A stretch of 64,000 bases of DNA from the NCBI GenBank assembly GCA_017531845.1, contig JAFXKI010000004.1, positions 62,001 through 126,000 of the forward strand, in the 5' to 3' direction. Positions within the stretch are counted from its first letter, which is position 1. Each line of letters opens with the position of its first letter. The DNA comes from Opitutales bacterium (GTDB lineage: Bacteria > Verrucomicrobiota > Verrucomicrobiia > Opitutales > UBA953). The translations under genes were made by a program, and so were the position numbers. The notes under the pieces were generated by a model. The model saw only the letters and a list, made by a program, of their open reading frames with translations. It was not told where the DNA came from and did no database searches. Below are positions 1,727 to 54,496 of this stretch, piece by piece.

Positions 1727-1971
1727 CAATACCTTGAGAATGAACTATTTACGTCGCGGAAACCACATATTTTTGAAAAAACAGAAAAGTTCTTTTGGTT
1801 CAGCGTTCCCGAAGAGAAAAAAGAGAGTTATTTTTTTAATTTTTTTTGTAAAAACATTAAAAAAATGACTTTTTACACAAAAACAGTATCTTTTAAACAA
1901 GACTTTTTTAAAAAAAGTTTCTTTATTTTATGCGGATTAGAAAACTTTTTTGAAAATTTTTAAAAAATCTA
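1727..1971. other. AT-rich intergenic stretch
   Basis: Very AT-rich DNA with long A and T runs between the AsmA-like gene and the small-RNA candidate. It presumably carries the promoter of the minus-strand gene. No ORF with a convincing start and no repeat is seen. Confidence 0.5.
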
Positions 1972-2000
1972 TTGACGTTTTAAAATATTTAATCTTTAAT
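1972..2000 (+). promoter_or_regulatory. Sigma-70-type promoter
   Basis: TTGACG at 1972-1977, a 17-bp spacer and TTTAAT at 1995-2000 match the housekeeping consensus in 5 of 6 positions each. Transcription would start near 2007 and run toward mogA. Confidence 0.55.
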
Positions 2001-2006
2001 GCTTTC

Positions 2007-2113
2007 ATACTTAATAAATTTTCTCTCACTTAGTGAGAGATGGGGTAATAAGCAACGAGATATAGAAAATAAAAGACCGGTCGCTTAGGGGTAGGCGACC
2101 GGTCGTCATTTTT
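2007..2113 (+). ncRNA. Candidate small RNA or 5' leader of mogA
   Basis: Downstream of the promoter are two clean hairpins without an ORF: TCTCTCA/TGAGAGA (2022-2028 with 2034-2040) and a perfect 10-bp stem GACCGGTCGC/GCGACCGGTC (2075-2084 with 2095-2104), followed after four bases by five T (2109-2113). This would give an RNA of about 105 nt, ended by the second hairpin, or an attenuated leader if transcription reads on into mogA and hemH. A second weak hairpin followed by T7 lies at 2114-2138. No known riboswitch family is recognised. Confidence 0.4.
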
Positions 2114-2178
2114 ACACATAGCGACAGGGTGTTTTTTTGATTTTCCTTCTTCAAAAAGCAACTCATAATCGGGGCGTT

Positions 2179-2649
2179 ATGTTGAGAATAGGACGCCTTA
2201 CCATCAGTAATCGGACTGTTTCCGGGCAATCCCCGGACTTGAGCGGTATCGAAATTGAGAAGCAGCTCGTGGAATTACTCGGCGAAGATATAAAATTTGT
2301 TACGCGTATTGTCGGTCACGATCGAAATCGTATCGCAGATGCCATTCGTTCCCTCGTTGACGACGAAGGGTGCACGCTTGTTCTTACGGCGGGAGGAACG
2401 GGACCGCTTCGGCGCGACGTAACCCCGGAAGCTACGCGTCTTGTCATTGAAAAGGAATTGCCGGGCTTCGGCGAAATTCTCCGTATGAAATATTATGAAA
2501 CGACGAAAACGGCGGTTTTACTTCGCGTGACGGCTGGAATTCGGAGCCATGCACTCATCGTAAATTTACCGGGGACGCCTGACGGCATCCGTTCTTCCCT
2601 GGAAATTCTCGGTCCGGCGATTTACGAGTGTGTCGTTCATATTCGTTAA
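2179..2649 (+). CDS. mogA: MogA/MoaB-type molybdopterin adenylyltransferase
   Basis: Encodes 156 residues if translation starts at the ATG of MLRIGRLTISNR; an in-frame ATG 14 codons upstream adds a non-conserved tail and is not preferred. The MoCF-binding fold is clear: the TAGGTGP loop followed by RDVTPEA near residues 88-101, and NLPGTPDGIR near residue 130. Enzymes of this family adenylylate molybdopterin before molybdenum insertion in molybdenum cofactor synthesis; MoaB-type paralogues share the motifs, so MogA versus MoaB cannot be settled here. No other moa/moe gene is nearby. hemH follows after 31 bp and is probably cotranscribed. The leader contains the small-RNA candidate. Confidence 0.85.
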   Translation: MLRIGRLTISNRTVSGQSPDLSGIEIEKQLVELLGEDIKFVTRIVGHDRNRIADAIRSLVDDEGCTLVLTAGGTGPLRRDVTPEATRLVIEKELPGFGEILRMKYYETTKTAVLLRVTAGIRSHALIVNLPGTPDGIRSSLEILGPAIYECVVHIR

Positions 2650-2680
2650 ACGGAAGCATTGCGGAATTTCCCGACAAAAA

Positions 2681-3646
2681 ATGCAAAAATCCCGCGCAAT
2701 TCTTTTATTAAATCTAGGTTCTCCCGATTCTCCGACCGTTCCCGCCGTTCGCAAGTATTTGCGGGAGTTTCTTGGAGACGGATACGTTATTTCTCTTCCG
2801 TGGATTTTTAGAAAAATTCTGTTGGAATGCTTTATTTTACCGCGGCGTCCCAAAAAATCTGCGGCTCTTTACAAGCGTATTTGGACGCCGAACGGCTCTC
2901 CTCTTATTTATGAGACGGAAAAATTGCGAGAACGCCTTGCGGAGAAACTTTGCGGGAGGGCGAAGGTTTTTTGTGCAATGCGCTACGGAAACCCGGGAGT
3001 CAAAAACGCTCTTCAAAAGATAAAAAGCGAAGGTATTTCCGAGGTTTTTATAATTCCGCTCTATCCGCAATGTGCGGAATCTTCATGGATTACGGCAGCA
3101 GAGCACGCGAAAAAAATTTTTGAAAAAAATGCGCCGGAAATAAGCATTCGCTTTGCAAAACCTTATTATGAAGAACCGGAATTTATCAAGGCACTTGCCG
3201 AAGTTGCCGAAAGATTTATTGCCGGAAAAAATTTTGAAAAGCTTCTGATTTCATTTCACGGCGTTCCCGTTAAAACACCATTAGCACAAAGTTACAGAAA
3301 AGAATGCGAAACAACGGGAACACTACTTGCAAAAGCTTTGAACTTGCCTGAAAACCGTTGGGAAGTGGCATTTCAATCGCATTTCGGAAAAGGAAAGTGG
3401 CTGGAGCCTTCAACCGAATGCCGTCTGGAAAATTTACCTCGGGAAAATGTAAAAAATCTTGCAGTTATCGCACCCGGATTTTCAGCGGACTGCCTCGAAA
3501 CGCTTGATGAACTTGCTATTCGCGGAAAAGAAAAATTTCTCAAAGCCGGCGGGAACGCGTTTTTTACAATTCCTTGCTTAAATGATTCTGAAAGCTTTGT
3601 TAAATTTTTGTCCGAGCTTTTTCTCCGAAATTTTCCGGATATCTAA
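2681..3646 (+). CDS. hemH: Ferrochelatase
   Basis: A 321-residue cytoplasmic or membrane-associated enzyme that inserts iron into the porphyrin at the end of heme synthesis. Start chosen at MQKSRAILLLNLGSPDSP, which matches the usual N-terminus; the open frame extends 17 codons upstream into the end of mogA without conserved sequence. Family marks: LLNLGSPDSP near the start, ISFHGVP with the metal-site histidine near residue 193, FQSHFGKGKWLEP, and the C-terminal APGFSADCLETLDEL, where the glutamate of the second metal site lies. No Fe-S cysteine cluster is evident at the C-terminus. A strong terminator follows, so mogA-hemH form a two-gene unit. No other heme gene is in the window. Confidence 0.95.
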   Translation: MQKSRAILLLNLGSPDSPTVPAVRKYLREFLGDGYVISLPWIFRKILLECFILPRRPKKSAALYKRIWTPNGSPLIYETEKLRERLAEKLCGRAKVFCAMRYGNPGVKNALQKIKSEGISEVFIIPLYPQCAESSWITAAEHAKKIFEKNAPEISIRFAKPYYEEPEFIKALAEVAERFIAGKNFEKLLISFHGVPVKTPLAQSYRKECETTGTLLAKALNLPENRWEVAFQSHFGKGKWLEPSTECRLENLPRENVKNLAVIAPGFSADCLETLDELAIRGKEKFLKAGGNAFFTIPCLNDSESFVKFLSELFLRNFPDI

Positions 3647-3648
3647 AT

Positions 3649-3676
3649 AACGGGGACGTTCTCCGTTTTTTTAATT
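3649..3676 (+). terminator. Intrinsic terminator after hemH
   Basis: An 8-bp stem (AACGGGGA with TTCTCCGTT, one G-T pair) with a three-base loop, followed by a run of T. Confidence 0.8.
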
Positions 3677-3758
3677 TTTAACCCGAATTTTTATTTCGCA
3701 AAAAACTGCGGCTTTAATTATCAATTGGGAATTAACTTATTTCAGAAACTTTTTGTAA

Positions 3759-5063
3759 ATGAGCGCAGGAAATATCGAATCGGCAAAAATCATTATCGAC
3801 GGCAAAGAATATCTTGCTCCCGTTTTTTGCGGAAGCGAGGGAGAGCGAGCCATTGATATGATGAAATTTCGCGCTCAGACGGGCTACATAACTTACGACG
3901 ACGGTTACGGGAACACGGGATCTTGCACCAGCGGAATTACGTTTATCGACGGAGAAAAAGGGATTTTACGTTACCGCGGTTACCCGATCGAAGAACTCGC
4001 AGCCCGCTCCAATTTTATTGAAAGCGCATATCTCGTAATTTACGGACGCTTACCAAATTCAAAGGAACTTGAAGATTTTAGAAATAGTATCTTAGTAAAC
4101 GCGGGAATTCATGAAGGATTGAGGAATTCTTTTACAGGATTTCCGCCTTCTGCGCACCCGATGGCTGTGCTTTCCGCGATGCTTAACGCTCTCGGCTGTT
4201 ATCACCCCGAGTTGTCTTCAAATAACCGGAAACAAGACTTGGAAAATTTTGACAAAACGGCAACGGTTTTGATCTCCAAAGTCCGTGCATTGGCTGCAAT
4301 GTCTTACCGCTTCCGTCAAGGCTTTCCGGTAATTTACCCGAAACGCGGCTACAATTACTGCGAAAACTTTTTACACATGATGTTTTCCATGCCCGGTGAA
4401 GACACACAAGTTCATCCGGACATCGCGAAAGTTCTCGATATCTTATTATTGCTACATTTGGATCATGAGCAAAATTGCTCAACTTCCACAGTGCGCATGG
4501 TAGGGAGCGGCGGTGCAAACCTTTTTGCTTCGGTTTCTGCCGGTGTTTGTGCTCTTTGGGGACCGATGCACGGCGGTGCAAATCAGGCAGTGATTGAAAT
4601 GCTCACGGAAATTGAAGCAACCGGAGATGACGGTTCGAAATTTGTTCAGCGGGCAAAAACCGGCGAAGTACGTCTGATGGGATTCGGTCATCGTGTTTAC
4701 AAAAATTATGACCCAAGGGCGAAAATTTTGCGGGAGCAGTGCCACAAAGTTGTTGATACGCTCGGTGCGGGCGATCCCCTTTTGAAAATAGCTCACAGAC
4801 TGGAAGACATTGCGCTCAACGATGAATACTTCCAAAAAAGAAATCTCTATCCGAACGTTGATTTTTACAGCGGAATTATTCTTCGAGCCTTAGGCATTCC
4901 CTTAAACATGTTCCCGGTCATTTTTGCCATGGGGCGCATGCCGGGATGGATTGCTCAATGGCACGAAATGGCATCGAGACCGGGCGGAAAGATTCACCGC
5001 CCGCGCCAGATTTACACCGGAGAATGTATAAAAAAATTCGTTCCGCTCATGGAACGTGAATAA
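3759..5063 (+). CDS. gltA: Citrate synthase (type II)
   Basis: A 434-residue enzyme condensing acetyl-CoA and oxaloacetate, the entry step of the TCA cycle; aconitase lies 11 kb downstream. Length and N-terminal beta domain (residues 1-50, [24 protein letters not shown]) are typical of the hexameric, NADH-regulated Gram-negative type. Catalytic residues are present: the His in MHGGANQAV near residue 270, the His in [14 protein letters not shown] near 311, and the Asp in NVDFYSG near 369. ATG start with a weak upstream purine stretch. It stands alone between two terminators, so it is monocistronic. Confidence 0.96.
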
Positions 5064-5087
5064 TACGGGAACGCCAAATAACGCGAA

Positions 5088-5124
5088 AAAGCACGGAAAG
5101 GTAAAAAAACTCCGTGCTTTTTTT
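5088..5124 (+). terminator. Intrinsic terminator after gltA
   Basis: Stem AAAGCACGGA (5088-5097) with TCCGTGCTTT (5111-5120), loop of 13 bases, then T7 in all. Confidence 0.9.
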
Positions 5125-5163
5125 CTCGCATAATTTAGCTGAATGGAAACAATTGGAGGGGTT

Positions 5164-5514
5164 ATGAATGAACTCAGTTTCAGCGATCAGGCAATGACGG
5201 AGCTCAACAAACTTTCGGCTCTCGAACAAATGCCTCTAATTGATGCACTCAGCACCGTAACCTCTGAAGAACTCAAAAAAAATAAGAGCAAATACGGTGC
5301 TTTTTCCCGCGGCGGAAAAACATACTACCGCTTACGGGAAGGTGATTTACGTATTTATTTTACCGAAAGCAAAGGTGCTATTTTCTGTAGCCACATCCTT
5401 TATAAACACAGCATCACCGACTTTGCTTTCCGCTCCAAATTGCCCGTAAAAGAAGAACACCTTATCGAGCAGGATAAAAACTTTTGGGAATATCTCGATT
5501 CACTGAGTAAATAA
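5164..5514 (+). CDS. RelE/ParE-fold protein without a visible antitoxin
   Basis: About 116 residues from the ATG of MNELSFSDQ, preferred over an in-frame ATG seven codons upstream because GGAGG sits four bases before it. The core FSDQAMTELNKLS...YYRLREGDLRIYF...CSHILYKHS follows the RelE/ParE pattern: N-terminal helix hairpin, then R-x-x-x-G-D-x-R strand and a final hydrophobic strand. RelE toxins cleave ribosome-bound mRNA and ParE toxins poison gyrase. Unlike most, it has a ~25-residue acidic/aromatic C-terminal tail (KLPVKEEHLIEQDKNFW) and no partner antitoxin ORF on either side: upstream is the gltA terminator, downstream is pssA after 33 bp. It could be a domesticated, non-toxic member. 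Function unproven. Confidence 0.65.
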   Translation: MNELSFSDQAMTELNKLSALEQMPLIDALSTVTSEELKKNKSKYGAFSRGGKTYYRLREGDLRIYFTESKGAIFCSHILYKHSITDFAFRSKLPVKEEHLIEQDKNFWEYLDSLSK

Positions 5515-5547
5515 TTTTTTTATTACGCTCACAACCCCTGTTAAAAA

Positions 5548-6468
5548 ATGGACGAAAATACCCAAGAAGAAAAGAAACCCGTAAAATACGGGAATGTCCG
5601 TGATGCCGCACGTATTTACCTTTTGCCGAATTTTTTTACGGCGGGAAATATGTGTTGCGGTTTTTTCTCTTTGTGTAAATGCATTGAGGCAAACCATACA
5701 CCGAATATTGCCGCTGCGAACGAGCTTTACATGATGGCGGTCTATCTGATCTTCGGAGCTTGTATTTTCGATCTTTTTGACGGACGCATGGCACGCATGT
5801 TTAAGAAGGAATCCATGTTCGGAGCGGAATTTGATTCCATTGCCGATACCGTTTCCTTCGGCGTCGCTCCTGCATTTCTGGTTTACTTCCTGATATTCGA
5901 TCCGGCTCGATCTAATTCTTTTGACTGGGTTAACAGCTTTATAGCAAGCACCGGTGCTATTATCGGCTTCGTCTATTTGCTCTGTGCCGGGATTCGATTA
6001 GCAAAATTCAACGTGCTAACCAATCCTCTGATTCCCGGGAACGAAAAGAAAAGCCCCGCATCGGATTTTATGGGAATTCCTTCACCGGTTGCCGCTGCCA
6101 TTACGGCTTCTTTTGTCTTGTTGCTGACTCATCTGAACTCGGACGAAAATGCCGTCGAAGCGACATCCACGCTAAAAACATGGCTTCCTATCATACTCTT
6201 GCCGACAATGTTGCTTGTTTCCATTTTAATGGTAACAAATATTCCCTACCCGACTTTTAAACACATAGACTGGAACAGTAAGGCGAAAGCTCAGGCGTTT
6301 ATTTTTATCATTCTGTTTATTATCGTTGCGGCAAAATTCCATATTTTTGCAATCCCTGCTGCTTTGTTAATTTACGTTTTTTACGGCTTAATCCGCGCTT
6401 TGAAAATGAAAATAAAGAAAGCAAAAGCCGGGAACGTACCTGTAAACGATGTAGAAGAAACCTTCTAA
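5548..6468 (+). CDS. pssA: CDP-diacylglycerol-serine O-phosphatidyltransferase
   Basis: A 306-residue integral membrane enzyme that makes phosphatidylserine, precursor of phosphatidylethanolamine. The CDP-alcohol phosphotransferase signature DGRMARMFKKESMFGAEFD continues to D-S-x-A-D near residues 74-98, with the spacing D-G-x2-A-R-x8-G-x3-D-x3-D. PNFFTAGNMCCGFFSL near residue 30 is the usual subclass II PssA start. Several further transmembrane segments (roughly 120-145, 180-195, 205-230, 250-290) follow. The C-terminus is Lys-rich and cytoplasmic. The neighbour that often accompanies it, a phosphatidylserine decarboxylase gene, is not here. Confidence 0.92.
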   Translation: MDENTQEEKKPVKYGNVRDAARIYLLPNFFTAGNMCCGFFSLCKCIEANHTPNIAAANELYMMAVYLIFGACIFDLFDGRMARMFKKESMFGAEFDSIADTVSFGVAPAFLVYFLIFDPARSNSFDWVNSFIASTGAIIGFVYLLCAGIRLAKFNVLTNPLIPGNEKKSPASDFMGIPSPVAAAITASFVLLLTHLNSDENAVEATSTLKTWLPIILLPTMLLVSILMVTNIPYPTFKHIDWNSKAKAQAFIFIILFIIVAAKFHIFAIPAALLIYVFYGLIRALKMKIKKAKAGNVPVNDVEETF

Positions 6469-6733
6469 CAGCCTGTTAATAAACAGAGGATAAATTTGTT
6501 AAGGATTTATTCAGTCTATTACGGGAACGCAATTGACGTTCTTATTATCAAAGTAAATACGTCTGAAAAGGGCTTTAAATAAAAGGTTACCACAAGTTAC
6601 GCACATTTTTAACAGCCCTAATTATTACGAAGATATTTAAAGAAAAGAGAAAAAATAAAATATCAATAAACAACATCTTTTTGTGAAAAACATAGTGTTG
6701 CGTCAATAACTCTAATTAAAGATTCTATTTATC
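6469..6733. other. AT-rich dnaN leader, possible replication origin
   Basis: A 265-bp AT-rich gap before dnaN. It has two DnaA-box-like 9-mers with one mismatch to TTATNCACA: TTACGCACA at 6597-6605 and, on the minus strand, TTTTTCACA (TGTGAAAAA at 6682-6690), plus a weaker AGAGGATAA at 6485-6493, and an A/T-only stretch around 6640-6700 that could serve as an unwinding element. dnaA is absent. Presence of dnaN, mnmE, mnmG and two parS-like sites nearby makes an origin plausible, but the gap may be only the dnaN promoter region. Confidence 0.35.
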
Positions 6734-7858
6734 ATGAAATTTAAAATTAACCGCGAATTTTTTGCCGCAGGATTAAGTCAAGTCGTCAATATTGTAAGCA
6801 ATCGCCCTACTCTTCCTGTTTTCAGCAACGTTTTGATTGAAGCGGAAGACGGAAAGGTGCGTTTAACGACAACAAATCTCGAAATCGGTATTCTTTGCTT
6901 AGTTAAGGCGGAAGTTATCGTTCCCGGAAGCATTACGTTACCGGTGAAAAAATTGAAAGACATTGTCAGCGGTTTGATGGGGAGTGAAATCAGTTTCGAA
7001 CTCGTTTCAGGAACGAAAGTTAAAATTACTTCCGGAAGCTCGGATGCTGTAATGACCGGTATTGAAACGGAACAGTTCCCGCCCTTACCTGTTGTCAGTA
7101 ATGAAAATCTTTTCGAAGTCGAGCAAAGCGATTTGTCTACGATGATAAAGAGTGTTTCTTACGCACAATCAACAGACGAAAATCGCTATGTGCTTAACGG
7201 TGTTTTCTTTAATTTTTCGGATGATGGCTTGGTGTTAGTGGCAACGGACGGACGTCGCCTTGCAACCTGTGAACGCAAAGTTGCCGTCAGTGAAAATAAG
7301 CTGACACCTTTTATTCTTCCCGCTAAAACGGTGAATGAACTTCAGAAACAACTCGGCAACAAGGGAAAAGTCTCTATCGGCTTGAGTGAGCGTCAGGTGA
7401 TGTTTGAAGTCGATATTGACGAAAAAGCCGATAACGGTCTTTGCGATAAAATAAAAATTGTTTCTAAGGTGGTTGAAGGAAACTATCCGCAATACAAGCA
7501 GGTAATTCCGAAGGATTCCGGAAATCGTATCGAAATAGAAAGAGATATGTTCCTGCGTTCTGTTGATTTTGCCGCAAAAGTAACTACGGACAAAAATAAT
7601 TCCGTTCACTTGAATATTTCTCAAAATTCCGTCGAAGTCGCCGCTAACGGAGGAGAAAATGAAGCAAGCAATAAAATTGCCGTTCAATATGAAGGTGCGG
7701 AGATGAAAATTGCATTTAATCCGCAGTTTTTGTCGGATCCTCTCAAGGCTTTGACTCAAGATGTCGTCGTTTTTGAATTTAAAGACGAACTTAGTCCGGG
7801 GGTTATTAAGACAAAAGATGAGGGTTTCCTCTGTGTGATTATGCCTCAGCGTAAGTAA
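6734..7858 (+). CDS. dnaN: DNA polymerase III beta subunit (sliding clamp)
   Basis: A 374-residue protein, normal length for the clamp, forming a dimeric ring that tethers replicative polymerase to DNA. It starts MKFKINREFFAAGLSQVVNIVSNRPTLP and ends VIMPQRK, the usual N- and C-terminal strands; the three repeated clamp domains span about 1-120, 121-250 and 251-374, with NRYVLNGV at the second domain entry and the conserved DGRRLA near 175. It is followed by a strong terminator. dnaA and recF, common partners, are not adjacent. Confidence 0.96.
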   Translation: MKFKINREFFAAGLSQVVNIVSNRPTLPVFSNVLIEAEDGKVRLTTTNLEIGILCLVKAEVIVPGSITLPVKKLKDIVSGLMGSEISFELVSGTKVKITSGSSDAVMTGIETEQFPPLPVVSNENLFEVEQSDLSTMIKSVSYAQSTDENRYVLNGVFFNFSDDGLVLVATDGRRLATCERKVAVSENKLTPFILPAKTVNELQKQLGNKGKVSIGLSERQVMFEVDIDEKADNGLCDKIKIVSKVVEGNYPQYKQVIPKDSGNRIEIERDMFLRSVDFAAKVTTDKNNSVHLNISQNSVEVAANGGENEASNKIAVQYEGAEMKIAFNPQFLSDPLKALTQDVVVFEFKDELSPGVIKTKDEGFLCVIMPQRK

Positions 7859-7874
7859 GCGGAAGAAATCCGTT

Positions 7875-7915
7875 AAAAAAAAAGAAGTCGCAGAAATGTT
7901 GGCTTCTTTTTTTTT
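7875..7915 (+). terminator. Intrinsic terminator after dnaN
   Basis: AAAGAAG (7881-7887) pairs with CTTCTTT (7903-7909), extended on both sides by A and T runs. Confidence 0.8.
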
Positions 7916-7989
7916 GTGTTTTATAAGAACAGAAAGTCTCAATACTTGCGAATCGCGTGTGTTATGTGATTTAATGACGGACGCTTTCT

Positions 7990-9345
7990 ATGAATGATTT
8001 TTCAACTATTGCTGCACTTGCTACGCCGGTCGGATCATCGGCGCTTGCTCTTATTCGTGTGAGCGGGAATCTTGCCGTACGGATTGCTGAATTGGCTTTT
8101 GAAAATCATAAAATAGTACCCCGTAAGGCTTATCTTGGAGCATATAAAAGCTGTGAAGGAAAAATCCTTGATGAGTGTGTGTGGACAATGTTTCCGAAAC
8201 CGGGATCGTATACCGGTGAAGATTTATTGGAAATTTCATGTCACGGAAATCCGTTTATTGTTAACAGAATTTTAGAAGATCTTTTTCGTCGTGGATGTAA
8301 CCCTGCTTTGCCCGGAGAATTTACGAAAAGGGCTTTTCTTAACGGGAAGATGGACTTAACTCAAGCGGAGGCTGTTGCGGAAATAATTTCCGCACGATCT
8401 GAAAGAGCCTTTGACGCTGCGAGAAAATTACTTTCCGGTGAACTCGGAAAAAGAATTTTCAGTTGGAATGAAGAAATATTAATGCTCCTTGCCGAGACGG
8501 AAACGCAGATTGATTTTTCTGAAGAAGAAGTTCCGGAAATTGATCCGGAATATTTCAAAAAAAGAGTAGGCGAATTAATTTTAAGCCTTAGGGAAACTAA
8601 GGCATCTGCACAGTATTCGTCACGGGTTTATGAAGGTATTAATGTTGTTATTTTTGGTGCTCCGAATGCCGGTAAATCGTCACTGATGAATGCTCTTGTA
8701 GGAAATAATAGAGCTTTGGTCAGTGATGAAGCGGGAACGACAAGAGATTTTATTTCCGAAAATATTTTAATCGGAGAAAATTGTATAAGAATTGTAGATA
8801 CGGCAGGTATTCGTGATGATGCTGTTTCAAAGGTCGAGAAATCCGGTATCGAAAAAACTTTAGATTGTATTTCGGGGGCTGATTTTCTGTTGTTTGTCGT
8901 CGATGCCTCCTCCCCCCCTCCCCTTCTTTCCAAAGAAATTTTAGAGCAAATAAAACCGGATAATACTTGCATTCTCTTTAATAAAGCGGATAAACCTCAG
9001 GCATTTGATAAAAATGTCTTTTTACCGGAGATAGACAATATCTCTATCTCTCTTCTGGAGAAAGATTCCGGAGGAATAATAAAAGATTTCTTGGCTAAAA
9101 TATTCAGAAAAAAAAATATCGTTCCCGACGGGAACGTATTAATTGTCTCTACCCGCCACGCGGAAGCCATAAACCGGGCAGAAAATCAACTCAGAGAGGC
9201 TTCCGAGATTATAGGAAATTTACCCGTTGAATTTGTCTCAGCAAAACTCAGAGCAGCATTAGAAGAATTGTCTGAAATATTAGGACAATTTGATAATGAA
9301 AAAGTGTTAGATAAAATATTTTCTTCTTTTTGCATTGGAAAATAG
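7990..9345 (+). CDS. mnmE: tRNA modification GTPase MnmE
   Basis: A 451-residue GTPase which with MnmG installs the cmnm5 group on the wobble uridine of several tRNAs. The N-terminal folate-binding domain begins [21 protein letters not shown]. The GTPase domain has the P-loop GAPNAGKSS (about 223-231), AGTTRDFI (switch), DTAGIRD and NKAD (near 331). The C-terminal CIGK, whose Cys is catalytic in the family, is intact. The mnmG start codon follows the TAG by one base, so the two are translationally coupled. The mnmE-mnmG pair is commonly origin-proximal. Confidence 0.97.
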
Positions 9346-9346
9346 C

Positions 9347-11230
<1,884 letters not shown>

Positions 11231-11246
11231 TGTTCTACGTGGAACA
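11231..11246. promoter_or_regulatory. parS: Second parS-like site after mnmG
   Basis: TGTTCTACGTGGAACA differs from the site inside mnmG by one base and starts at the base after the mnmG stop codon. Two such 16-mers 1.15 kb apart are very unlikely by chance. Confidence 0.75.
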
Positions 11247-11263
11247 TTGTTCCGATTTTATTT

Positions 11264-11743
11264 ATGGAATGGACTATAAAATCTTTCTCTAAGTGTTGTG
11301 CAGTTAGCGGTGTCTCCTTTTCTGAAGGTGATGAAATTCTTTGTTTTATTTGTATGAATCGCTCCGGGGAAATTGAAAGATTTGATGTTTTGAAAGGACG
11401 TATTCCTGATTTTATTCCCCAAGGAAGAATTTTAGGACAGTGGAAAAGAGTCTTTTCTAAAGAAAATTCTTATAAAACAGAGGAAATTCAGAAAATATTT
11501 CATTATGAAGAGTTCTTTTTTTCTCTTTTTGAAGGTGAAAAAAGCAGAGAAAAGGAGATTTTAAAGCAACTTTTTGCCCTCTTACTCGAAAAAAGACGCA
11601 TTTTGAGAGCTTTTTCTCAAAAAAATGGGAAAAATCAGAAATTTCTTCATGTGAAAACTAAAAAAGAATTTATCGTTTCTTTAGAAGATTTTTTTCCTGA
11701 AGATTTGACTTCTCTTGAAAATATTTTTGGAATGTTCACCTGA
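11264..11743 (+). CDS. Hypothetical protein, 159 aa
   Basis: Not recognised. The ATG follows the second parS-like site by 17 bp and no clear Shine-Dalgarno sequence is seen. The protein starts MEWTIKSFSKCCAVSG, has a short Cys-containing N-terminal part (Cys at about 11, 12, 27 and 30: CFICMNRSGE, possibly half of a zinc site), then a charged helical middle rich in Lys/Glu/Phe, with no signal peptide or transmembrane helix. The next gene starts 15 bp after its stop, so it heads a probable operon with the lipoprotein and the M23 peptidase. A cytoplasmic role is likely; nothing more can be said. Confidence 0.7.
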   Translation: MEWTIKSFSKCCAVSGVSFSEGDEILCFICMNRSGEIERFDVLKGRIPDFIPQGRILGQWKRVFSKENSYKTEEIQKIFHYEEFFFSLFEGEKSREKEILKQLFALLLEKRRILRAFSQKNGKNQKFLHVKTKKEFIVSLEDFFPEDLTSLENIFGMFT

Positions 11744-11758
11744 TTTACCTGATTTGCT

Positions 11759-12286
11759 ATGAGAAAATTATTGGTTTCACTTTTCTTTTCGGTTTTGTGT
11801 TTTTTCTTATGTTCCTGTGCTTCTAAAGTGCCGGAGCACTATGTTGCTTTCTATCTTGAATCTCCGAAAAAATCAGGAACTTTCGATATTTCCCGTACTT
11901 TTATGCTTCCTGTTATTAATAAGGAAATACGGGTTTCAAGGGATCCGGTTTTTAATATTGATGCACTTTCGGATTGTGTTGTTTCTCAGAAATACGATCC
12001 CGTTTTGGATACACACATTCCCGGTTTGTTTTTCAGAATTAAAGATGATTATTCCATCCGCTTGGAACAAATTGCCTCTAGGGCGGAAGGGCGCAAATTC
12101 CTTTTGGTTGCGGACGGAAAGCCTCTCGGTTTTTGTATTTTAAAGAAGAATATGACACGGAATGATTTATTTTTCTTTGTTATGACTTCCGTGAGCGGAA
12201 ACGAAGCCTTATCTCAATTAGATGAGCTTTGTTTTGAATTAAACGGTTATATTTTGGAGTTTCGGGAATATAAAGAAAATCAATGA
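11759..12286 (+). CDS. Predicted lipoprotein
   Basis: A 175-residue protein with a lipoprotein signal: MRKLLVSLFFSVLCFFLCSC, lipobox ending at Cys-20, followed by Ala-Ser-Lys, which suggests sorting to the outer membrane under the usual rule. The mature part has mixed alpha/beta character (RTFMLPVINKEIRVSRDP, RKFLLVADGKPLGFCILKK) and no recognised catalytic motif. Its last four bases overlap the ATG of the M23 peptidase gene (ATGA), so the two are translationally coupled and may act together at the cell envelope. Family unknown to me. Confidence 0.75.
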   Translation: MRKLLVSLFFSVLCFFLCSCASKVPEHYVAFYLESPKKSGTFDISRTFMLPVINKEIRVSRDPVFNIDALSDCVVSQKYDPVLDTHIPGLFFRIKDDYSIRLEQIASRAEGRKFLLVADGKPLGFCILKKNMTRNDLFFFVMTSVSGNEALSQLDELCFELNGYILEFREYKENQ

Positions 12287-13290
12287 AGTTAAAATTTTTA
12301 TTTCTTTCGATGCTGGGAGTTATTTTACTCCCGGCATTTTCTTTTTCCGCTGTTTTGCCTCCGACAGATCTGCTTTTGCCTTGTAATAAAATAGAAATGA
12401 GGTCTTATATTCAGCCGACCGTCTCCGGTCGCTGGACTTCAGGATGTTTCGGTATGGTTCGAAATTCCGGTAAGCGTTTTCATGAAGGATGGGATATAAG
12501 AGCTTCTAAAAGGGGAGGGCAGGGGGAGGTATTGGATCGTGTTTATTCTGTTTATGACGGAAAAATAGTTCATGTTTCTCGCGAGAATAACGGTTCTTAC
12601 GGAAAATATGTCGTGATTGAGCATCGGAATTCAAACATTTGTTTTTATTCGTTGTATGCTCACTTGGACAAGATTTTTCTCGAAGTCAGAAGTGGGATGT
12701 CGGTTTCTTCGGGAACGCCTATAGGAATAATGGGAAATACTTCGTCAGTTTATCAAATCCGACCGGGATTTGAACACCTTCATTTTGAAGTCGGATTGCA
12801 GTTAGGTGAGGGGTCTTTTGAGCGTTGGTATGAAAAAAGTTTTCCTTCCCATGATAAGAATCTCCATGCTTCCTGGAACGGACTAAATTTGTCCGGAATA
12901 GATCCGGAAGATTTTTTTCGTGAAGCAAAAAATAAACATACGGATTTTTTTTTAAGACTTTTGGATAATACTCCGACTGCTTTTTCGGTTACCGTTCCCG
13001 TTTCTCGCATCCCTGAAATTTTAAAGAAGTCTCCGGGGCTTTTGCTTAAAACGAGAGAAGATCTTAATCCGAGCGGCTGGAAAATACTTTTTTCATGGAG
13101 CGGTCTTCCTAAAAAATTTATCCCTATTTTTGATTTAAAAGATTTAAATTCCGTAAAGATAGATTATGTATCAGAAAAATATATACATAAATCTGTTTCC
13201 CGTGGAATGATTGTTCGTAAAGACGGTGTATACTGTATAGGAAAAAACTTAACAAATACCCTTGAAATTATTTTTGGAGTATCGTTTTAA
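12283..13290 (+). CDS. M23-family peptidase (LytM domain), secreted
   Basis: A 335-residue protein with a Sec signal peptide (cleavage near residue 23, FSFSA). The LytM/M23 zinc-peptidase domain covers about 45-190: HEGWD supplies the first His and Asp ligands, and HLHFEVG supplies the HxH pair, so the zinc site looks complete; GKIVHVSRENNGSYGKYVVIEH is the typical strand between them. Family members cut peptidoglycan cross-links or activate other hydrolases. The ~140-residue C-terminal region (from about 195) is not recognised. It overlaps the upstream lipoprotein gene by four bases, pointing to a joint wall or envelope role. Confidence 0.88.
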   Translation: MKLKFLFLSMLGVILLPAFSFSAVLPPTDLLLPCNKIEMRSYIQPTVSGRWTSGCFGMVRNSGKRFHEGWDIRASKRGGQGEVLDRVYSVYDGKIVHVSRENNGSYGKYVVIEHRNSNICFYSLYAHLDKIFLEVRSGMSVSSGTPIGIMGNTSSVYQIRPGFEHLHFEVGLQLGEGSFERWYEKSFPSHDKNLHASWNGLNLSGIDPEDFFREAKNKHTDFFLRLLDNTPTAFSVTVPVSRIPEILKKSPGLLLKTREDLNPSGWKILFSWSGLPKKFIPIFDLKDLNSVKIDYVSEKYIHKSVSRGMIVRKDGVYCIGKNLTNTLEIIFGVSF

Positions 13291-13327
13291 ATGAGTTATC
13301 ATTCGTTCCCGTGATGTAATTAAAGAT

Positions 13328-13909
13328 ATGGATTCTTTTTATTTAGTTTTGGTGCTTTGCGGTGTTGCCGTTATGGCTCTTCTTTTGAATATCCGAAAGA
13401 AACTTCCCAAATATATTTTCGTTTTTCTTTCTGTTTCTATTATTGTATCCGTTTCTTGGTATACGATGGATTCCGGAGAGGGAATGAAAAATGATTCTGT
13501 TGATACGGAAAAGGAATTGTTTGTTTTTGCCGAAGTTTCAAAAAATATATCTGCCGATCCGGGGAAGACAAAAATATCGATACCCGCTGTTGTTTCGGGA
13601 AAAAGGAATCTGGACTGTATTCGGATGGCGTTCTCGTTAGATAGCAAAAACCTGACAGAGCAGACTTTCATTGAAAAAACGGATTTTCTGCTTCTGTCTT
13701 CTGACGGCACTTTGCTTCCCGCAAGCAGCATACAATTTGTTAAAGAGGAATCTACAAGATTTCCGGAGAATTTTATTCTGAAAGCTTTTTTTGTTTTACC
13801 GGAAAACCTAAAATCGGCTGAGTTCCAACTTGTTGTGGAGAATAAGTTTTCCGAATCTCTTTTCATTTCCGAAGTCGCTGTAGCTTCTTCTCCTTTTTTA
13901 GAAAAATAA
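13328..13909 (+). CDS. Hypothetical membrane-anchored protein, 193 aa
   Basis: Not recognised. Two hydrophobic helices lie at the N-terminus (about 4-21 and 28-45), followed by a ~145-residue soluble region of mostly beta character (ELFVFAEVSKNI, FQLVVENKF) likely facing the periplasm. No cysteines or catalytic motifs stand out. tlyA begins one base after its stop codon, so the two are cotranscribed, although no functional link is evident. Confidence 0.65.
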   Translation: MDSFYLVLVLCGVAVMALLLNIRKKLPKYIFVFLSVSIIVSVSWYTMDSGEGMKNDSVDTEKELFVFAEVSKNISADPGKTKISIPAVVSGKRNLDCIRMAFSLDSKNLTEQTFIEKTDFLLLSSDGTLLPASSIQFVKEESTRFPENFILKAFFVLPENLKSAEFQLVVENKFSESLFISEVAVASSPFLEK

Positions 13910-13910
13910 T

Positions 13911-14666
13911 ATGGTATCCGAAAAAAAAATACGTGCGGATGAATTGCTTTTTCGTCAAGGAAAAGCGGAATCACGTTCCCGGGCGAAAATTTTGATTATG
14001 GCGGGAAAAGTGCGGAGCGGTCCGGATTCTCTGATTTCAAAACCTGCTCAAATGGTACCGGAAACAACAGAGCTCTTTGTGGAATCTCCGCCTCGGTTTG
14101 TTTCTCGCGGCGGGGAAAAACTTGCGGGTGCCATTGAATCTTTCGGTATTTCTGTTGCCGGAAAACACGCGCTTGATATCGGGGCAAGCACGGGAGGTTT
14201 TACCGACTGTCTTTTGCAAAACGGTGCTCTTTCCGTAACCTGCGTAGATGTTGGGCACGGTCAGTTGCATGCCAAACTTCGAAGCGATGGTCGTGTTACG
14301 AATTTAGAAAAGGTAAATGCGCGCCAGCTGGATTCCGTTGCGCTCCCGCGGGAACGCTATGATTTGGTGGTTGGAGATTTATCGTTTATTTCGCTGAAAA
14401 TGATTCTTCTTCCGGCGTGGAATCGGGTAGAGCAGGGCGGAGCATTGATAATGTTAATAAAGCCCCAATTTGAAGCCACCCGCGAGGAAGTTTCAAAAAC
14501 TTCCGGAATCATAAAAGATTCGGCTATCCACGAACGTGTTGTAAAAGAAATTTTGAATTTCGCCGAGACGGAGCTTCCGGGCTTTTCTCTTCTAGGGCTT
14601 TGCGATTCTCCCATCAAAGGCGGAGACGGAAACAAAGAGTTTCTTTTTTATGCCGGAAAAAATTAA
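13911..14666 (+). CDS. tlyA: TlyA-family rRNA 2'-O-methyltransferase
   Basis: A 251-residue protein with an N-terminal S4 RNA-binding domain (about 5-62; IRADELLFRQGKAESRSRAK is typical) and a FtsJ/RrmJ-type methyltransferase domain starting FVSRGGEKLAGAIE. The SAM loop DIGASTGGFTDCLLQNGA is near 88-105 and the KDKE-type residues appear as K in SRGGEKL, D in VVGDLSF and K in LIKPQFE. The family methylates ribose in 16S/23S rRNA and was first named hemolysin; the haemolytic label is probably misleading. It follows the preceding membrane protein gene by one base. Confidence 0.92.
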   Translation: MVSEKKIRADELLFRQGKAESRSRAKILIMAGKVRSGPDSLISKPAQMVPETTELFVESPPRFVSRGGEKLAGAIESFGISVAGKHALDIGASTGGFTDCLLQNGALSVTCVDVGHGQLHAKLRSDGRVTNLEKVNARQLDSVALPRERYDLVVGDLSFISLKMILLPAWNRVEQGGALIMLIKPQFEATREEVSKTSGIIKDSAIHERVVKEILNFAETELPGFSLLGLCDSPIKGGDGNKEFLFYAGKN

Positions 14667-14727
14667 AAAAAATAATTCTTGCAATGTGGAAAGAAAAATG
14701 AGTTAATCGACGTTCACAAAGAAAGTT

Positions 14728-14916
14728 ATGGAAACCACTCAACAACATTCAAAAACTCCGTTGGATTTCGACTTTACGGACGTTGAAGCTCTTTCCCGTT
14801 TTGTTACTGAAACCGGTAAAATCCTGCCGCGTCGCATTACGGGGCTTACCGCTAAGCAGCAACGCCATGTTACGGCCGCTATTAAGCGTTCCCGCAACAT
14901 GTTGCTCATGAAATAA
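14728..14916 (+). CDS. rpsR: Ribosomal protein S18
   Basis: A 62-residue protein, short for S18 (usually 70-90) because the N-terminal tail is reduced. The diagnostic core is present: [19 protein letters not shown], then [21 protein letters not shown], with the basic C-terminus. It is not in the usual rpsF-rpsR-rplI cluster, since neither rpsF nor rplI is adjacent, and it has its own strong terminator. Confidence 0.95.
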
Positions 14917-14935
14917 TTCTGTTTTCAGTGAGCAT

Positions 14936-14972
14936 AAAATACGCCGGCGTTCCCGTCGGCGTATTTTTTTTT
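14936..14972. terminator. Bidirectional terminator between rpsR and the PstS-like gene
   Basis: An AT-flanked stem AAAATACGCCG / CGGCGTATTTT with A run on the left and T9 on the right serves both converging genes. The loop contains the octamer CGTTCCCG. Confidence 0.85.
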
Positions 14973-14975
14973 GTG

Positions 14976-16133
14976 TTATTTTTCTATCGGGTTGCTTTTC
15001 GGCAGGGGAATATAGCCCGTTTTTTCGATGATTTCCTGTCCGGCGGGAGAAAACATAAACTCAACGATTTTCTTTGTGTTTTCCGAACGCGGTTGTGCCG
15101 AAATCATGTAAAAATCCGCGATAAACGGATACGTTCCGTTCACTATGTTTTCTTTTGTCGGAGCAATTCCGTCGATCGAAAGTAGTTTCAGCTTATCGTT
15201 GTGCATCATTTCCAGCGTGTAGAAGCGGAAAGAAAACCCGATTGCGCTGTTTTTATTCCGGTATTCCGCCGTTTGTGTGAGGATTGTTCCCATGCCATCG
15301 GAAACGCGCTCTTCTATCGGCGGCGCAATCGGTGTTCCCGCCATGATTTTTTCCAACATCGTTTGACTTCCGCTTCCTTTATTGCGTTGGAATGCGATAA
15401 TTTCCTCCGATTCCGGGGCTCCGATTTCTTTCCAATCTTTAATTTTCCCGGAGTAAATTCCGCGAATCTGCTCGGAACTTAAATTGTTGATCGGATTTTC
15501 TTTGTTCACGAAAAACACAAACGCTTCCCGTCCGAACGGTGTCATTTCGTATTGTATTCCCGCTTTTTGAGCAACTTCGAGTTGCGCTTCCGACGGCGCG
15601 CCGCCGAAAATTAAATCCGCGTTCCCGCGATTCAACATCTGAAATGTTCGATCCGAGCCGGTCGTATCGACAAATTCCCAAATATAATAGCCGCTGTTTT
15701 CCGGATGCGGATAAAGCGCCTGAGCTACCGCTGCGTAAACCGGATAAAGCGCGTAGGCACCGCTCAGTTTCGGGAGCGTTCCCGCGAGCCGTTCCGGAGT
15801 CAGGTTTTCGGGAACTATCAGTTTGTTTCCTTTCCTGAACGGGCGATAATCCCATTCGTTGATGTTTGCCCGAACAACGTCGTAACGGGAACGCGTTTGC
15901 CAATCGATCCAATAAGCAATCGAGCATCCGCAAACGGCAACGAGCGTAGCTCCGAGAATTGTAACCGTAGCTGTTTTCGCGACTTTCCGGCTTTTGAAAA
16001 ACCATGAACCGAGCAAAAAAAGCCCGCCGACGAAAATCAAAAAAATCATCGGAATCGTTAACGACGGAAGCATATTTGAAAATCCGACAATCGCCGCCAT
16101 CGCCATACAAAAATAAGCCCATAAAAGAATCAC
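14976..16133 (-). CDS. PstS-like phosphate-binding protein with N-terminal membrane helices
   Basis: A 385-residue protein with a GTG start; an in-frame stop a few codons upstream allows no longer form with a standard start. Residues 1-75 form about three transmembrane helices (near 1-18, 22-46 and 55-75), then a PBP-like domain (about 105-380) with the PstS hallmarks: VDTTGSDRTFQMLNRGNADLIFGG, SSEQIRGIYSGKIKDWKEIG, and RNKGSGSQTMLEKIM for ligand binding. Free PstS has a plain signal peptide or lipobox instead; this one is a polytopic-anchored variant. No pstC, pstA, pstB, phoU or phoB is nearby, so its partner is unknown; a sensing or scavenging role is possible. Confidence 0.8.
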   Translation of the reverse strand: MILLWAYFCMAMAAIVGFSNMLPSLTIPMIFLIFVGGLFLLGSWFFKSRKVAKTATVTILGATLVAVCGCSIAYWIDWQTRSRYDVVRANINEWDYRPFRKGNKLIVPENLTPERLAGTLPKLSGAYALYPVYAAVAQALYPHPENSGYYIWEFVDTTGSDRTFQMLNRGNADLIFGGAPSEAQLEVAQKAGIQYEMTPFGREAFVFFVNKENPINNLSSEQIRGIYSGKIKDWKEIGAPESEEIIAFQRNKGSGSQTMLEKIMAGTPIAPPIEERVSDGMGTILTQTAEYRNKNSAIGFSFRFYTLEMMHNDKLKLLSIDGIAPTKENIVNGTYPFIADFYMISAQPRSENTKKIVEFMFSPAGQEIIEKTGYIPLPKSNPIEK

Positions 16134-50112: not shown

Positions 50113-50215
50113 ACCTGAACTTTTCGTAAAACTGATGATTACTTCGTTCCCGGCTGTGTGTGCTTAGATTTTCTTGCTTTTTGTCTCATTTTTATGTTTG
50201 AATTGTCGGAATCTT

Positions 50216-52180
50216 ATGACCACAGAAGAAATTGACGCTTTGATTTTGAAGAATCCTGAACTTTCGGCTACCCGCGGGCAGTTGGAAGCCATGAAGATCG
50301 GTGCGTATTGTATGCACCGCGCGTGGGGATTGGGGAAAATTACGGGCTATGATTCCGCGGCGGAACGCCTTATCGTTGATTTCCCTGAAGTCGGGAAGAC
50401 CGGGCATCGCATGGACCCGGGCTTCTGTGTCGGAAAGCTTGAGATTTTGCCGGAAAATCACTTGCTCGTTCGTAAGCATACGGACGCGGCGACGATTGAA
50501 AAACTCATCAAGAACGATCCCGTTCAATTGGTGAAGGAAATTTTGGCGGTGGCGCCGGATCATAAAATGACGGCGACGGAAATTGAACTCGTGCTTGGGC
50601 GTCTGCTCGGTCCCGCAAAAATGAAAAAATGGTGGGTGGCGACAAAAAAAGCTTTGCTGAAAGATCCTTCCGTCGGCGTTCCCGCGAAGAAGGAGGGCGA
50701 TTTCGAGCTTCGGGACAAGGACGACGAAGTCAGCCCGGAACGCGAAATCCTCGAGGAATACTATCGCAACAAAAATCCGAAAAAGAAAATTCTTCTTGCG
50801 GAAAAACTTTTCCAATTCTCTTCGGTGAAAGCGACGGACGAGCTGCCGCAGTTGGATCCGGATATGCCGCAGCCGCTTCACCATTATAAGGCGAGCGATC
50901 CGGAAATCGTCGGCGATTTACATAAAATTTTCGAAGAGCTGACGGATGCGATTAAGGCCGCAAAACGCCTCACCAAGGCGGAATGCCTTTACGGTCTTTG
51001 GGTGCGCAATGACCTTTGCCGCTTCTTTAAGGAAGATGTTGACTCTCTTGAGCCGACGTCCAAGTCTGTCATCCTTTCCTGCTCTCAGGAAGAACTGAAT
51101 GAAGTCGCGCGCCAGATTCCGCAAACGCCGGCGTGCCTGAAACGTTTGCTTGACCTTCTTTCCCGCGTTTACGCCGAAAACGGCGAATGGAAGAACGTTA
51201 CTCTGAAGCTTCTTGAAGACAGCACGGGAAAATTCACGGGAGAATGCATTACGTTCCTCGTTGAGCGCGGCGAAGACAAGCTTCTTTCCCGCAAGCTTCA
51301 GGAATGGCTCGACGGGCAAAACCTGCGTAGCCCGGTTCTGATTTGGATTATCAAAAACCGCAATTCACGCAAGTATCAGAAAATCGTTAAGCCGCTGATG
51401 ACACATCAGTTGCTTAACGCAATTCTTTACGCGATTGACCGCGAAGCCGTCATGTCCACTTCGAACCGCCGCATTCAGCTCGCGGAAGAGCTCAGCGACG
51501 ATTACGGGCTGATTCCGGATTTGCTGGAAGACGCGAACGAAGAAATCGCACGTGACTTGGCGCAGGCTCTCAACCTCAATCAGGGTTTTGAGCCGCTGAT
51601 GAAAAAGTCGCTTCTCGCCCGCTTTATCAAAATTTATCCGCGCATCCTTTCGCTCATTTCCGGAAGTGCTGTCGAAGATTCGGAACCGGAAGTTTCCTCC
51701 GCGCTTCTTGTTTCGGAATGGTCGTTACTGGAACGCCGCAACGAACTCGAAGATCTCATCAAAGTGCAGATTCCGGCGAACAAGGAAGCCATCGCCGTGG
51801 CAAAGGAACATGGGGACCTCAAGGAAAACTCCGAATACAAAATGGCCCGTCAGGACCAGGAAACGCTTCTCGCCCGCAAGAGCTTGCTCGAATCCGAGCT
51901 CGAACGCGCTCAGGTTACGGACTTTTCCGACACTCCGGCGGACAAAGTTGGCGTCGGCTCCATCGTCGAGCTCGTTCCCGCTTCGGGCGTTCCCGTCGTT
52001 TACACGATTCTCGGTGCGTGGGACAGCAATCCGGAAAAGAATATTCTTTCTTACAAAACGCCGCTTGCTCAGAAGCTTATCGGGAAAAAAATTGGCGATA
52101 TTGTTGAAACTGTTGTTGACGGCAATAAAGAAACATGGTCTATTAAGAGCATGTCCCGCTGGTTTGACCAAGCGAGATAA
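50216..52180 (+). CDS. GreA/GreB-family elongation factor with ~500-aa N-terminal extension
   Basis: A 654-residue protein; the start is set at MTTEEIDALILKNPE. Residues 1-500 form a mostly helical region beginning with a small domain (KIGAYCMHRAWGLGKITGYDSAAERLIVDF, CarD/Tudor-like in appearance). The last 155 residues are a full Gre module: coiled coil WSLLERRNELEDLI with the catalytic acidic tip HGDLKENSEYKMARQ, then the globular part ending WSIKSMSRW. GreA rescues backtracked RNA polymerase by stimulating transcript cleavage. Chlamydial GreA has a comparably long N-terminal part, which supports a PVC affiliation. No standard short greA is in the window. Confidence 0.88.
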   Translation: MTTEEIDALILKNPELSATRGQLEAMKIGAYCMHRAWGLGKITGYDSAAERLIVDFPEVGKTGHRMDPGFCVGKLEILPENHLLVRKHTDAATIEKLIKNDPVQLVKEILAVAPDHKMTATEIELVLGRLLGPAKMKKWWVATKKALLKDPSVGVPAKKEGDFELRDKDDEVSPEREILEEYYRNKNPKKKILLAEKLFQFSSVKATDELPQLDPDMPQPLHHYKASDPEIVGDLHKIFEELTDAIKAAKRLTKAECLYGLWVRNDLCRFFKEDVDSLEPTSKSVILSCSQEELNEVARQIPQTPACLKRLLDLLSRVYAENGEWKNVTLKLLEDSTGKFTGECITFLVERGEDKLLSRKLQEWLDGQNLRSPVLIWIIKNRNSRKYQKIVKPLMTHQLLNAILYAIDREAVMSTSNRRIQLAEELSDDYGLIPDLLEDANEEIARDLAQALNLNQGFEPLMKKSLLARFIKIYPRILSLISGSAVEDSEPEVSSALLVSEWSLLERRNELEDLIKVQIPANKEAIAVAKEHGDLKENSEYKMARQDQETLLARKSLLESELERAQVTDFSDTPADKVGVGSIVELVPASGVPVVYTILGAWDSNPEKNILSYKTPLAQKLIGKKIGDIVETVVDGNKETWSIKSMSRWFDQAR

Positions 52181-53470: not shown

Positions 53471-54496
53471 ATGCGCGCGGAACTGGAAGTTTTGCTCGGA
53501 AATCTGAATGCTCTCAAGCGCGAGGGCGTAACGGATATTTTTGTTTCCGAGGAAGCTCTTTCCGCTCTGCGGGAACGCGTCGCGGCGGTCGCATCGGCAG
53601 TTCCCCCGGCAAGGACGCCCGTTGCCGAGCTCCCGCCGAAGACTGTCCCGCAACAAAAATTGCGCGTGAATGAGCCTGTCGCCCGCATTCCCGCGCCGGA
53701 TGCCCGGTCTTCCGCTTCCGCGTTTCCGTCGTTTTCGTCGGAGAATTTTTATTCTACGAAAAAAACGCCCCCGCTTGCGTCGCCCAAAGCTCCGCCTCCG
53801 GCGAAAAAAGAGCCGACGTTCGATTTTTCCGTAAGCGAAGCGCGGGCGGCATCCGTTCCCGCGAACGGTTCCAATGCAGACCGGCTTGCCGCACTTCGTG
53901 AGCAAATGTTGGGCGATCCGATTTGTAATGAACATTTGCATGCGGGAAAACAGCTGGTTTTCGGGGAAGGCAATCCGGAGGCGGGTATTTTTTTCTGCGG
54001 AGAAGCTCCCGGCGCGGAAGAAGAAACGGAAGGGCGCCCGTTTGTCGGACCCGCCGGACAACTTTTGACCAAAATGATTGCCGCAACCGGGCTCTCCCGC
54101 GAGCAGGTCTACATCGGCAACATCATGAAATGGCGCCCGGAGCTCCCGACGCTTTACGGAAACCGCCCGCCGACGCCGGACGAAATGCGCTATTGCCTGC
54201 CGTATTTGTCTAAACAGGTGGAAATTATCCGCCCGCGCGTTATCGTTGCGCTCGGTTTGACTGCGGTGAACGGGCTTCTCGGGTTTGACCCGGACCGCCG
54301 CATCGGTGCAATGCGCGGGAAAAGTTTAGAATTTAAGGGCGTTCCCGTGGTAGCAACTTATCATCCCTCGTATCTTTTGCGGAACGATTCGATGAAATCA
54401 AAACGCGCGGCGTGGGAAGATTTTTTGCGGATGATGGAAATCGCCGGACTGCCGATTACCGAACGGCAAAGAAATTTCTTCCTCCCGAAAAAGTAA
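53471..54496 (+). CDS. Family-4-like uracil-DNA glycosylase lacking most Fe-S cysteines
   Basis: A 341-residue protein. The first ~140 residues are a Pro/Ala/Lys-rich, low-complexity arm. The glycosylase domain follows: GEAPGAEEETEGRPFVGPAGQLL (motif 1, near 178), VYIGNIMKWRP, and TYHPSYLLRN (motif 2). In family 4 enzymes four Cys bind a [4Fe-4S] cluster (C-x2-C before the first motif, Cys in the NxxKCRP segment, and one about 20 residues later). Here the first pair aligns to Pro and Asn, KCRP is KWRP, and only the last Cys (RYCLPYL) remains. So cluster binding is probably lost while the catalytic motifs stay. The repair role is likely; activity needs testing. Confidence 0.85.
   Translation: MRAELEVLLGNLNALKREGVTDIFVSEEALSALRERVAAVASAVPPARTPVAELPPKTVPQQKLRVNEPVARIPAPDARSSASAFPSFSSENFYSTKKTPPLASPKAPPPAKKEPTFDFSVSEARAASVPANGSNADRLAALREQMLGDPICNEHLHAGKQLVFGEGNPEAGIFFCGEAPGAEEETEGRPFVGPAGQLLTKMIAATGLSREQVYIGNIMKWRPELPTLYGNRPPTPDEMRYCLPYLSKQVEIIRPRVIVALGLTAVNGLLGFDPDRRIGAMRGKSLEFKGVPVVATYHPSYLLRNDSMKSKRAAWEDFLRMMEIAGLPITERQRNFFLPKK

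Follow-up and report, generated by a model that had tools for sequence, protein, structure and literature searches.

A family 4-type uracil-DNA glycosylase of the Opitutales that probably works without a [4Fe-4S] cluster

A 64,000-nucleotide stretch of an Opitutales genome (hereafter the window) carries the gene of a family 4-type uracil-DNA glycosylase (UDG) in which two of the four cluster cysteines are replaced. The protein is probably a working family 4-type UDG that lacks the [4Fe-4S] cluster and has the cluster cavity refilled by aromatic residues; from sequence and predicted structure, we infer the absence of the cluster, the filling of the cavity and the uracil excision activity alike. 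Family 4 UDGs are defined by an iron-sulfur cluster, and it is still debated whether the cluster of DNA glycosylases serves as a scaffold or for redox signalling along DNA. One bacterial order, and apparently many Alphaproteobacteria too, use this enzyme with an incomplete ligand set, and the window genome still has SufB/D and a MutY with its cluster motif. This provides a natural experiment on the purpose of the cluster. If such enzymes excise uracil normally, the cluster would be dispensable both for the chemistry and for repair in the cell. A blanket description of family 4 UDGs as iron-sulfur proteins is also probably wrong for entire lineages.

The gene and its family-defining features were located in the window as follows.

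53471..54496, + strand: family 4-type uracil-DNA glycosylase gene, 341 aa (ORF; PF03167; TIGR00758)
53471..53881, + strand: N-terminal arm, residues 1-137, a short leading stretch and then a Pro/Ala-rich linker (sequence)
53999..54013, + strand: motif A GEAPG, residues 177-181, with E178 equivalent to T. thermophilus (Tth) E41 (alignment to 1ui0; PMC5387724)
54119..54121, + strand: Asn217, equivalent to Tth N80, the uracil-binding Asn (alignment; PMC5387724)
54362..54382, + strand: motif B HPSYLLR, with H298 equivalent to Tth H155, the catalytic His (alignment; PMC5387724)

Profile searches matched the protein to PF03167 (E 8.2e-39) and to TIGR00758 (UDG_fam4), where its score of 168.8 bits exceeded the cut-off of 125.3; all 50 members of sequence set A2, the window protein included, matched TIGR00758 at E <= 0.001. 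The best phmmer matches in the PDB were the Thermus and Thermotoga family 4 UDGs, and the alignment to 1ui0 revealed the GEAPG motif A, a motif B beginning with HP and the pocket residues of family 4. The predicted model (pLDDT 95.3) had the family 4 fold, matching 1l9g in Foldseek (E 9.7e-20) and the T. maritima UDG 1vk2 with Z 28.0 and an rmsd of 1.6 over 187 residues. The superfamily members Mug, SMUG1 and BdiUNG, which are not known to carry a cluster, share the UDG fold with different motifs and a far weaker structural match (Z 12.7-14.1). UdgX of M. smegmatis (6ajo, 6ail) also resembled the model in fold (Z 25.8), but the protein scored 133.3 bits against the UdgX profile TIGR03914, below the cut-off of 189.95. 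As given in the available text of PMC10359453, motif A of family 4 is GE(A/G)PG, whereas UdgX combines GEQPG with a KRRIH loop and a cluster; neither GEQPG nor KRRIH was found in the window protein sequence, the motif A of which is GEAPG. No match to Ung (family 1, TIGR00628) was obtained by profile search in the own genome. The four-cysteine ligand set of the [4Fe-4S] cluster was represented by D149, C152, W221 and C242; as two cluster ligands are gone, the protein is filed as a family 4-type, cluster-ligand-deficient variant, that is, a non-standard member.

The initial annotation had described intact catalytic motifs and a Pro-rich arm of ~140 residues, and both descriptions agreed with our results, GEAPG and HPSYLLR being present and the N-terminal arm measuring ~137 residues. 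Similar Pro/Ala-rich arms occur in class and phylum relatives that keep all four cysteines (L075, L148 and others), indicating that the arm is unrelated to the loss of the cluster and is, by this sequence comparison, an ordinary feature in these proteins.

To place the cluster cysteines, we combined two alignments. The phmmer alignment to the T. maritima UDG set D149 opposite the first Cys and C152 opposite the second Cys of C-x2-C. In the four-cysteine relatives of the class, an additional residue separates Cys2 from the VFG strand, and the window protein had the identical, gap-free spacing. Together, this pairing and this spacing give Asp149 at Cys1, the kept Cys152 at Cys2, Trp221 at Cys3 and the kept Cys242 at Cys4, with only three Cys residues (152, 176 and 242) in the whole protein. 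The positions of the site are listed below.

53915..53917, + strand: Asp149 at the cluster Cys1 position, just before predicted helix 150-154, an N-cap position (alignments; DSSP on the model)
53924..53926, + strand: Cys152 at the cluster Cys2 position, kept (alignments)
53933..53935, + strand: His155, H in 37/50 W-type rows with Cys2 and Cys4 vs Leu in 55/55 four-Cys class rows (row comparison)
53996..53998, + strand: Cys176, directly preceding motif A; many order rows have Cys here and others Val (row comparison)
54131..54133, + strand: Trp221 at the cluster Cys3 position, in KWRP (alignments)
54191..54196, + strand: Tyr241-Cys242, a new aromatic adjoining the kept cluster Cys4 (alignments)

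The KWRP reported earlier in place of the expected KCRP was confirmed in the ORF translation. The initial annotation had also read Pro/Asn in place of C-x2-C, a reading that the shorter spacing found outside the class would give, and had concluded that one Cys was left and three of the four ligands were lost; the alignments give Asp149 and Cys152 instead, and two ligands are lost while Cys152 and Cys242 are kept.

To determine how far the altered site extends, we gathered orthologues from 57 close relatives, 113 class genomes, 145 phylum genomes (the sets overlap) and 80 named records. From the order and alphaproteobacterial counts, L054-L059, L146 and L147 (paralogues, UdgX and family 5), L278 (a fragment), L295 and L296 (phage) and L240 were set aside; at least two double entries were left in (L177 with L018, and L241 with L265). 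The four cysteines were kept together in 0/97 Opitutales orthologue rows, and the Cys3 position was aromatic in every one (94 W, 2 Y and 1 F). Written as the residues at Cys1 to Cys4, 35 of the 97 rows were DCWC, 34 CCWC and 13 CTWN, the rest being other broken sets; position 149 was C in 52, D in 38, H in 3, N in 2 and S in 2. The dN/dS values against relatives were 0.027-0.18 for five of six window pairs (the sixth was saturated), demonstrating strong purifying selection on the window gene. With Cys3 missing in 97/97 order rows and dN/dS low, the broken ligand set is more than chance. The loss of the full ligand set covers the whole order, which we infer to be Opitutales; named records with the same site (L176-L203) were labelled Opitutales, Opitutae or Puniceicoccaceae, and some Verrucomicrobia only.

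Outside the order, CCCC was found in 55/66 class rows and 28/28 phylum rows, these rows being a selection of the matches, with UdgX paralogues left out. The 11 class rows with a broken set formed two groups. In one, from families f23 and f45, Cys3 was Phe or Tyr; the other, a clade of three rows, had Tyr. The f23/f45 clade (L133-L138, L140, L141) was without Cys1, Cys2 and Cys3 (WAFC and similar), and at least two of its genomes (G058 and G142) each had two such genes. Among named loci outside the order, 49/52 were CCCC, in a scan whose patterns included Cys4 and so favour rows that keep it; the other three came from a Verrucomicrobia MAG (L232), a Planctomycetales genome (L240) and an alphaproteobacterial MAG (L241). 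L241 was followed into 28 genomes, its own included, 27 of which gave a match (L265-L291, fragment L278 set aside). The 27 alphaproteobacterial rows included 23 FCWC and one LCWC; as L241 and L265 represent one gene, this corresponds to 23/26 genes. Thus, the earlier proposal of a cluster-free branch held in that no order row had the full ligand set, but the broken set is not unique to that branch. Among phages, the N-terminal part of the Bacillus phage SP8 DNA polymerase I (L295, SPO1-type) had a UDG-like domain with none of the four cluster cysteines and with a degenerate motif A, and a podovirus polymerase (L296) kept all four.

We then compared 50 W-type rows keeping Cys2 and Cys4 with 55 four-cysteine class rows. 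Residue 221 was W in 50/50 W-type rows vs C in 55/55 four-cysteine rows, and residue 241 was Y or F in 50/50 vs T, N, A or R in 55/55. Residue 159 was G in 37/50 W-type rows, whereas it was R in 55/55 four-cysteine rows. From their positions at or beside the ligands, Trp221 (the old Cys3) and Tyr241 (beside the old Cys4) would fill the cluster cavity. In the model, helix 150-154 begins directly after D149 (DSSP), and this position suits Asp, Asn and Ser at Cys1 as helix caps; Asp149 would thus cap the short helix bearing the old Cys2. By such packing, the protein would take over the structural job of the cluster, which fastens the N-terminal loop onto the core.

Cys2 and Cys4 were kept together in 75/97 order rows and 24/27 alphaproteobacterial rows, and lost together in 15 and 2, respectively. 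Their retention in the order is unexpected under plain decay and counts against a cluster-free, aromatic-filled enzyme as the best explanation; it may reflect side-chain packing, a disulfide bond or one bound metal. A smaller site, in which a single Zn or Fe ion is bound by Cys152 and Cys242, perhaps together with His155 and residue 149 (Cys/Asp/His/Asn), or in which the two cysteines form a disulfide, would fit this joint behaviour, as well as the replacement of Cys1 in the order mostly by Asp and also by His and Asn. However, a test on independent pairs gave no significant coupling of Cys2 and Cys4 (median p 0.125), Cys1 is replaced by Ser as well in the order and by Phe in 26/27 alphaproteobacterial rows, and His155 remains in 13/13 CTWN rows though both cysteines are gone. 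The place before the helix accounts for Asp, Asn and Ser, and together with Ser and Asn in other rows it weakens Asp149 as a sign of a Zn site. We regard the smaller site as unlikely.

Continued binding of a [4Fe-4S] or [3Fe-4S] cluster through Asp149, Cys152 and Cys242, or through Cys176, is very unlikely. Asp can ligate clusters in some ferredoxins, and the 34/97 CCWC order rows, with three cysteines each, might still bind an incomplete cluster. Cys176, although found in many order rows, gives way to Val in others that share the site and in 13/13 CTWN rows, which rules it out as a replacement fourth ligand. Moreover, Trp occupies a ligand position in 94/97 rows, and further ligands were lost repeatedly and replaced by non-ligand residues.

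To estimate how often Cys3 became aromatic, trees were built without the trait columns, and long-branch and near-duplicate rows were removed from the Verrucomicrobiota tree; a first quick tree, poorly rooted by its UdgX outgroup and with long branches drawn together, was used for the state table only. The order formed one clade in both the Verrucomicrobiota tree (support 100/91) and the tree with Alphaproteobacteria (100/99). Its sister was the f23/f45 clade (98/84 and 99/82 in the two trees), so the aromatic at Cys3 may predate the split from the order. The Alphaproteobacteria formed a distinct clade (100/100). The fewest changes from Cys3 to an aromatic were two within Verrucomicrobiota and three with Alphaproteobacteria added, whereas an AU test did not reject a single aromatic clade (p 0.083); separate origins are thus favoured, not proven. 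The insertion after Cys2, present in Verrucomicrobiota and lacking in Alphaproteobacteria, also favours separate origins, and the alphaproteobacterial loss of the cluster site is apparently separate from that of the order. The change from Cys1 to Asp required 12 steps in the Verrucomicrobiota tree. A broader and unlikely proposal is that family 4 UDGs shed the cluster several times through replacement of Cys3 by a cavity-plugging aromatic, and that in two phyla the Cys2-Cys4 pair was kept, and tends to go together, for a new role as a disulfide switch or single-metal site.

To assess function, the window protein was aligned to 1ui0. The Tth UDGa pocket, as listed in the available text of PMC5387724, consists of E41, G42, E47, F54, N80, N89 and H155, and its counterparts in the window are E178, A179, E184, F191, N217, N231 and H298, with Ala for G42 and the rest conserved. 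By analogy with Thermus UDGa, Asn217 and motif A would bind uracil, His298 would stabilise the leaving base and Asn231 would position the water, so that uracil would be excised as by family 4 enzymes, which act on both ss and ds DNA. Changes of Cys to Ser in two family 4 enzymes lowered activity by only ~40%, and a family 5 enzyme with a disrupted cluster retained much activity, according to the available text of PMC5295032, making an active cluster-free enzyme plausible. Ung was absent from 55/57 genomes searched and present in 2/57. The orthologue was the sole PF03167 match in 28/57 genomes, 12 of which are at least 95% complete. The own genome (1.69 Mb, 95% complete) has one further UDG superfamily gene (L002 1360-2088), which matched no NCBIfam model and carries GMNPG and HPSP, both of them SMUG1 motifs (PMC10359453, available text). 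By motifs alone this second UDG is SMUG1-like, and it could carry the repair load instead. That the window protein binds uracil-DNA or another partner without cutting, as a decaying or repurposed homologue, is most improbable, for although motif A is altered in some relatives (GEAPT/S/V/N in genus g2, GDMPS in G004, IHMPG in G009), all pocket residues are retained in the window protein, which is under strong purifying selection, and in G005 and G006 the orthologue is the sole PF03167 match, with no Ung match.

The genus g2 CTWN rows (L037-L053, same family), with Cys2 and Cys4 lost and motif A altered to GEAPT/S/V/N and similar forms, kept the motif B His. The orthologues of G004 (L051) and G009 (L050) were very divergent, with a degenerate motif A, and are possibly no longer glycosylases; the G009 genome has Ung.

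SufB/D genes were present in the own genome, its MutY (L258 886-1974) keeps the C-x6-C-x2-C-x5-C motif, and 2.3 kb downstream of the UDG gene there is a MiaB-family radical SAM gene. On these results the organism most likely still makes Fe-S proteins, and a lost Fe-S supply was rejected as the cause on the basis of SufB/D and the MutY motif. The single HhH-GPD match in this 95% complete genome was MutY, and a separate Nth was not found there.

Compared with known systems, the window protein was closest to the family 4 UDGs of T. maritima (TM0511; 1vk2, 1l9g) and T. thermophilus (1ui0), sharing the fold (Z 28.0 and 25.7), ~40-43% identity, motifs A and B and the uracil pocket. It differs from both in Asp149 and Trp221 for Cys1 and Cys3, the new Tyr241, the long N-terminal arm and a one-residue insertion after Cys2 common to its Verrucomicrobiota relatives. 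The alphaproteobacterial UDG (L241 and relatives) likewise has Trp at Cys3, keeps Cys2 and Cys4 and has lost Cys1; in contrast, its Cys1 is Phe, its spacing is canonical without the insertion, and the loop after Trp is the shorter WRPPGNR, compared to WRPELPTLYGNR in the window. No description of a natural cluster-less family 4 UDG was found in open-access titles and abstracts, and a prior description is possible. The Nitratifractor salsuginis UDG was dropped as a precedent, the title cited in PMC10776899 describing an unconventional family 1 enzyme.

Elsewhere in the window, positions 1-16000 had a G+C content of 37-47% vs ~51-57% from 26 kb on, perhaps marking a mobile or foreign stretch. 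At 50174-52180, a GreA-like transcription factor carried an N-terminal extension of ~500 residues and scored below the long-GreA NCBIfam cut-offs.
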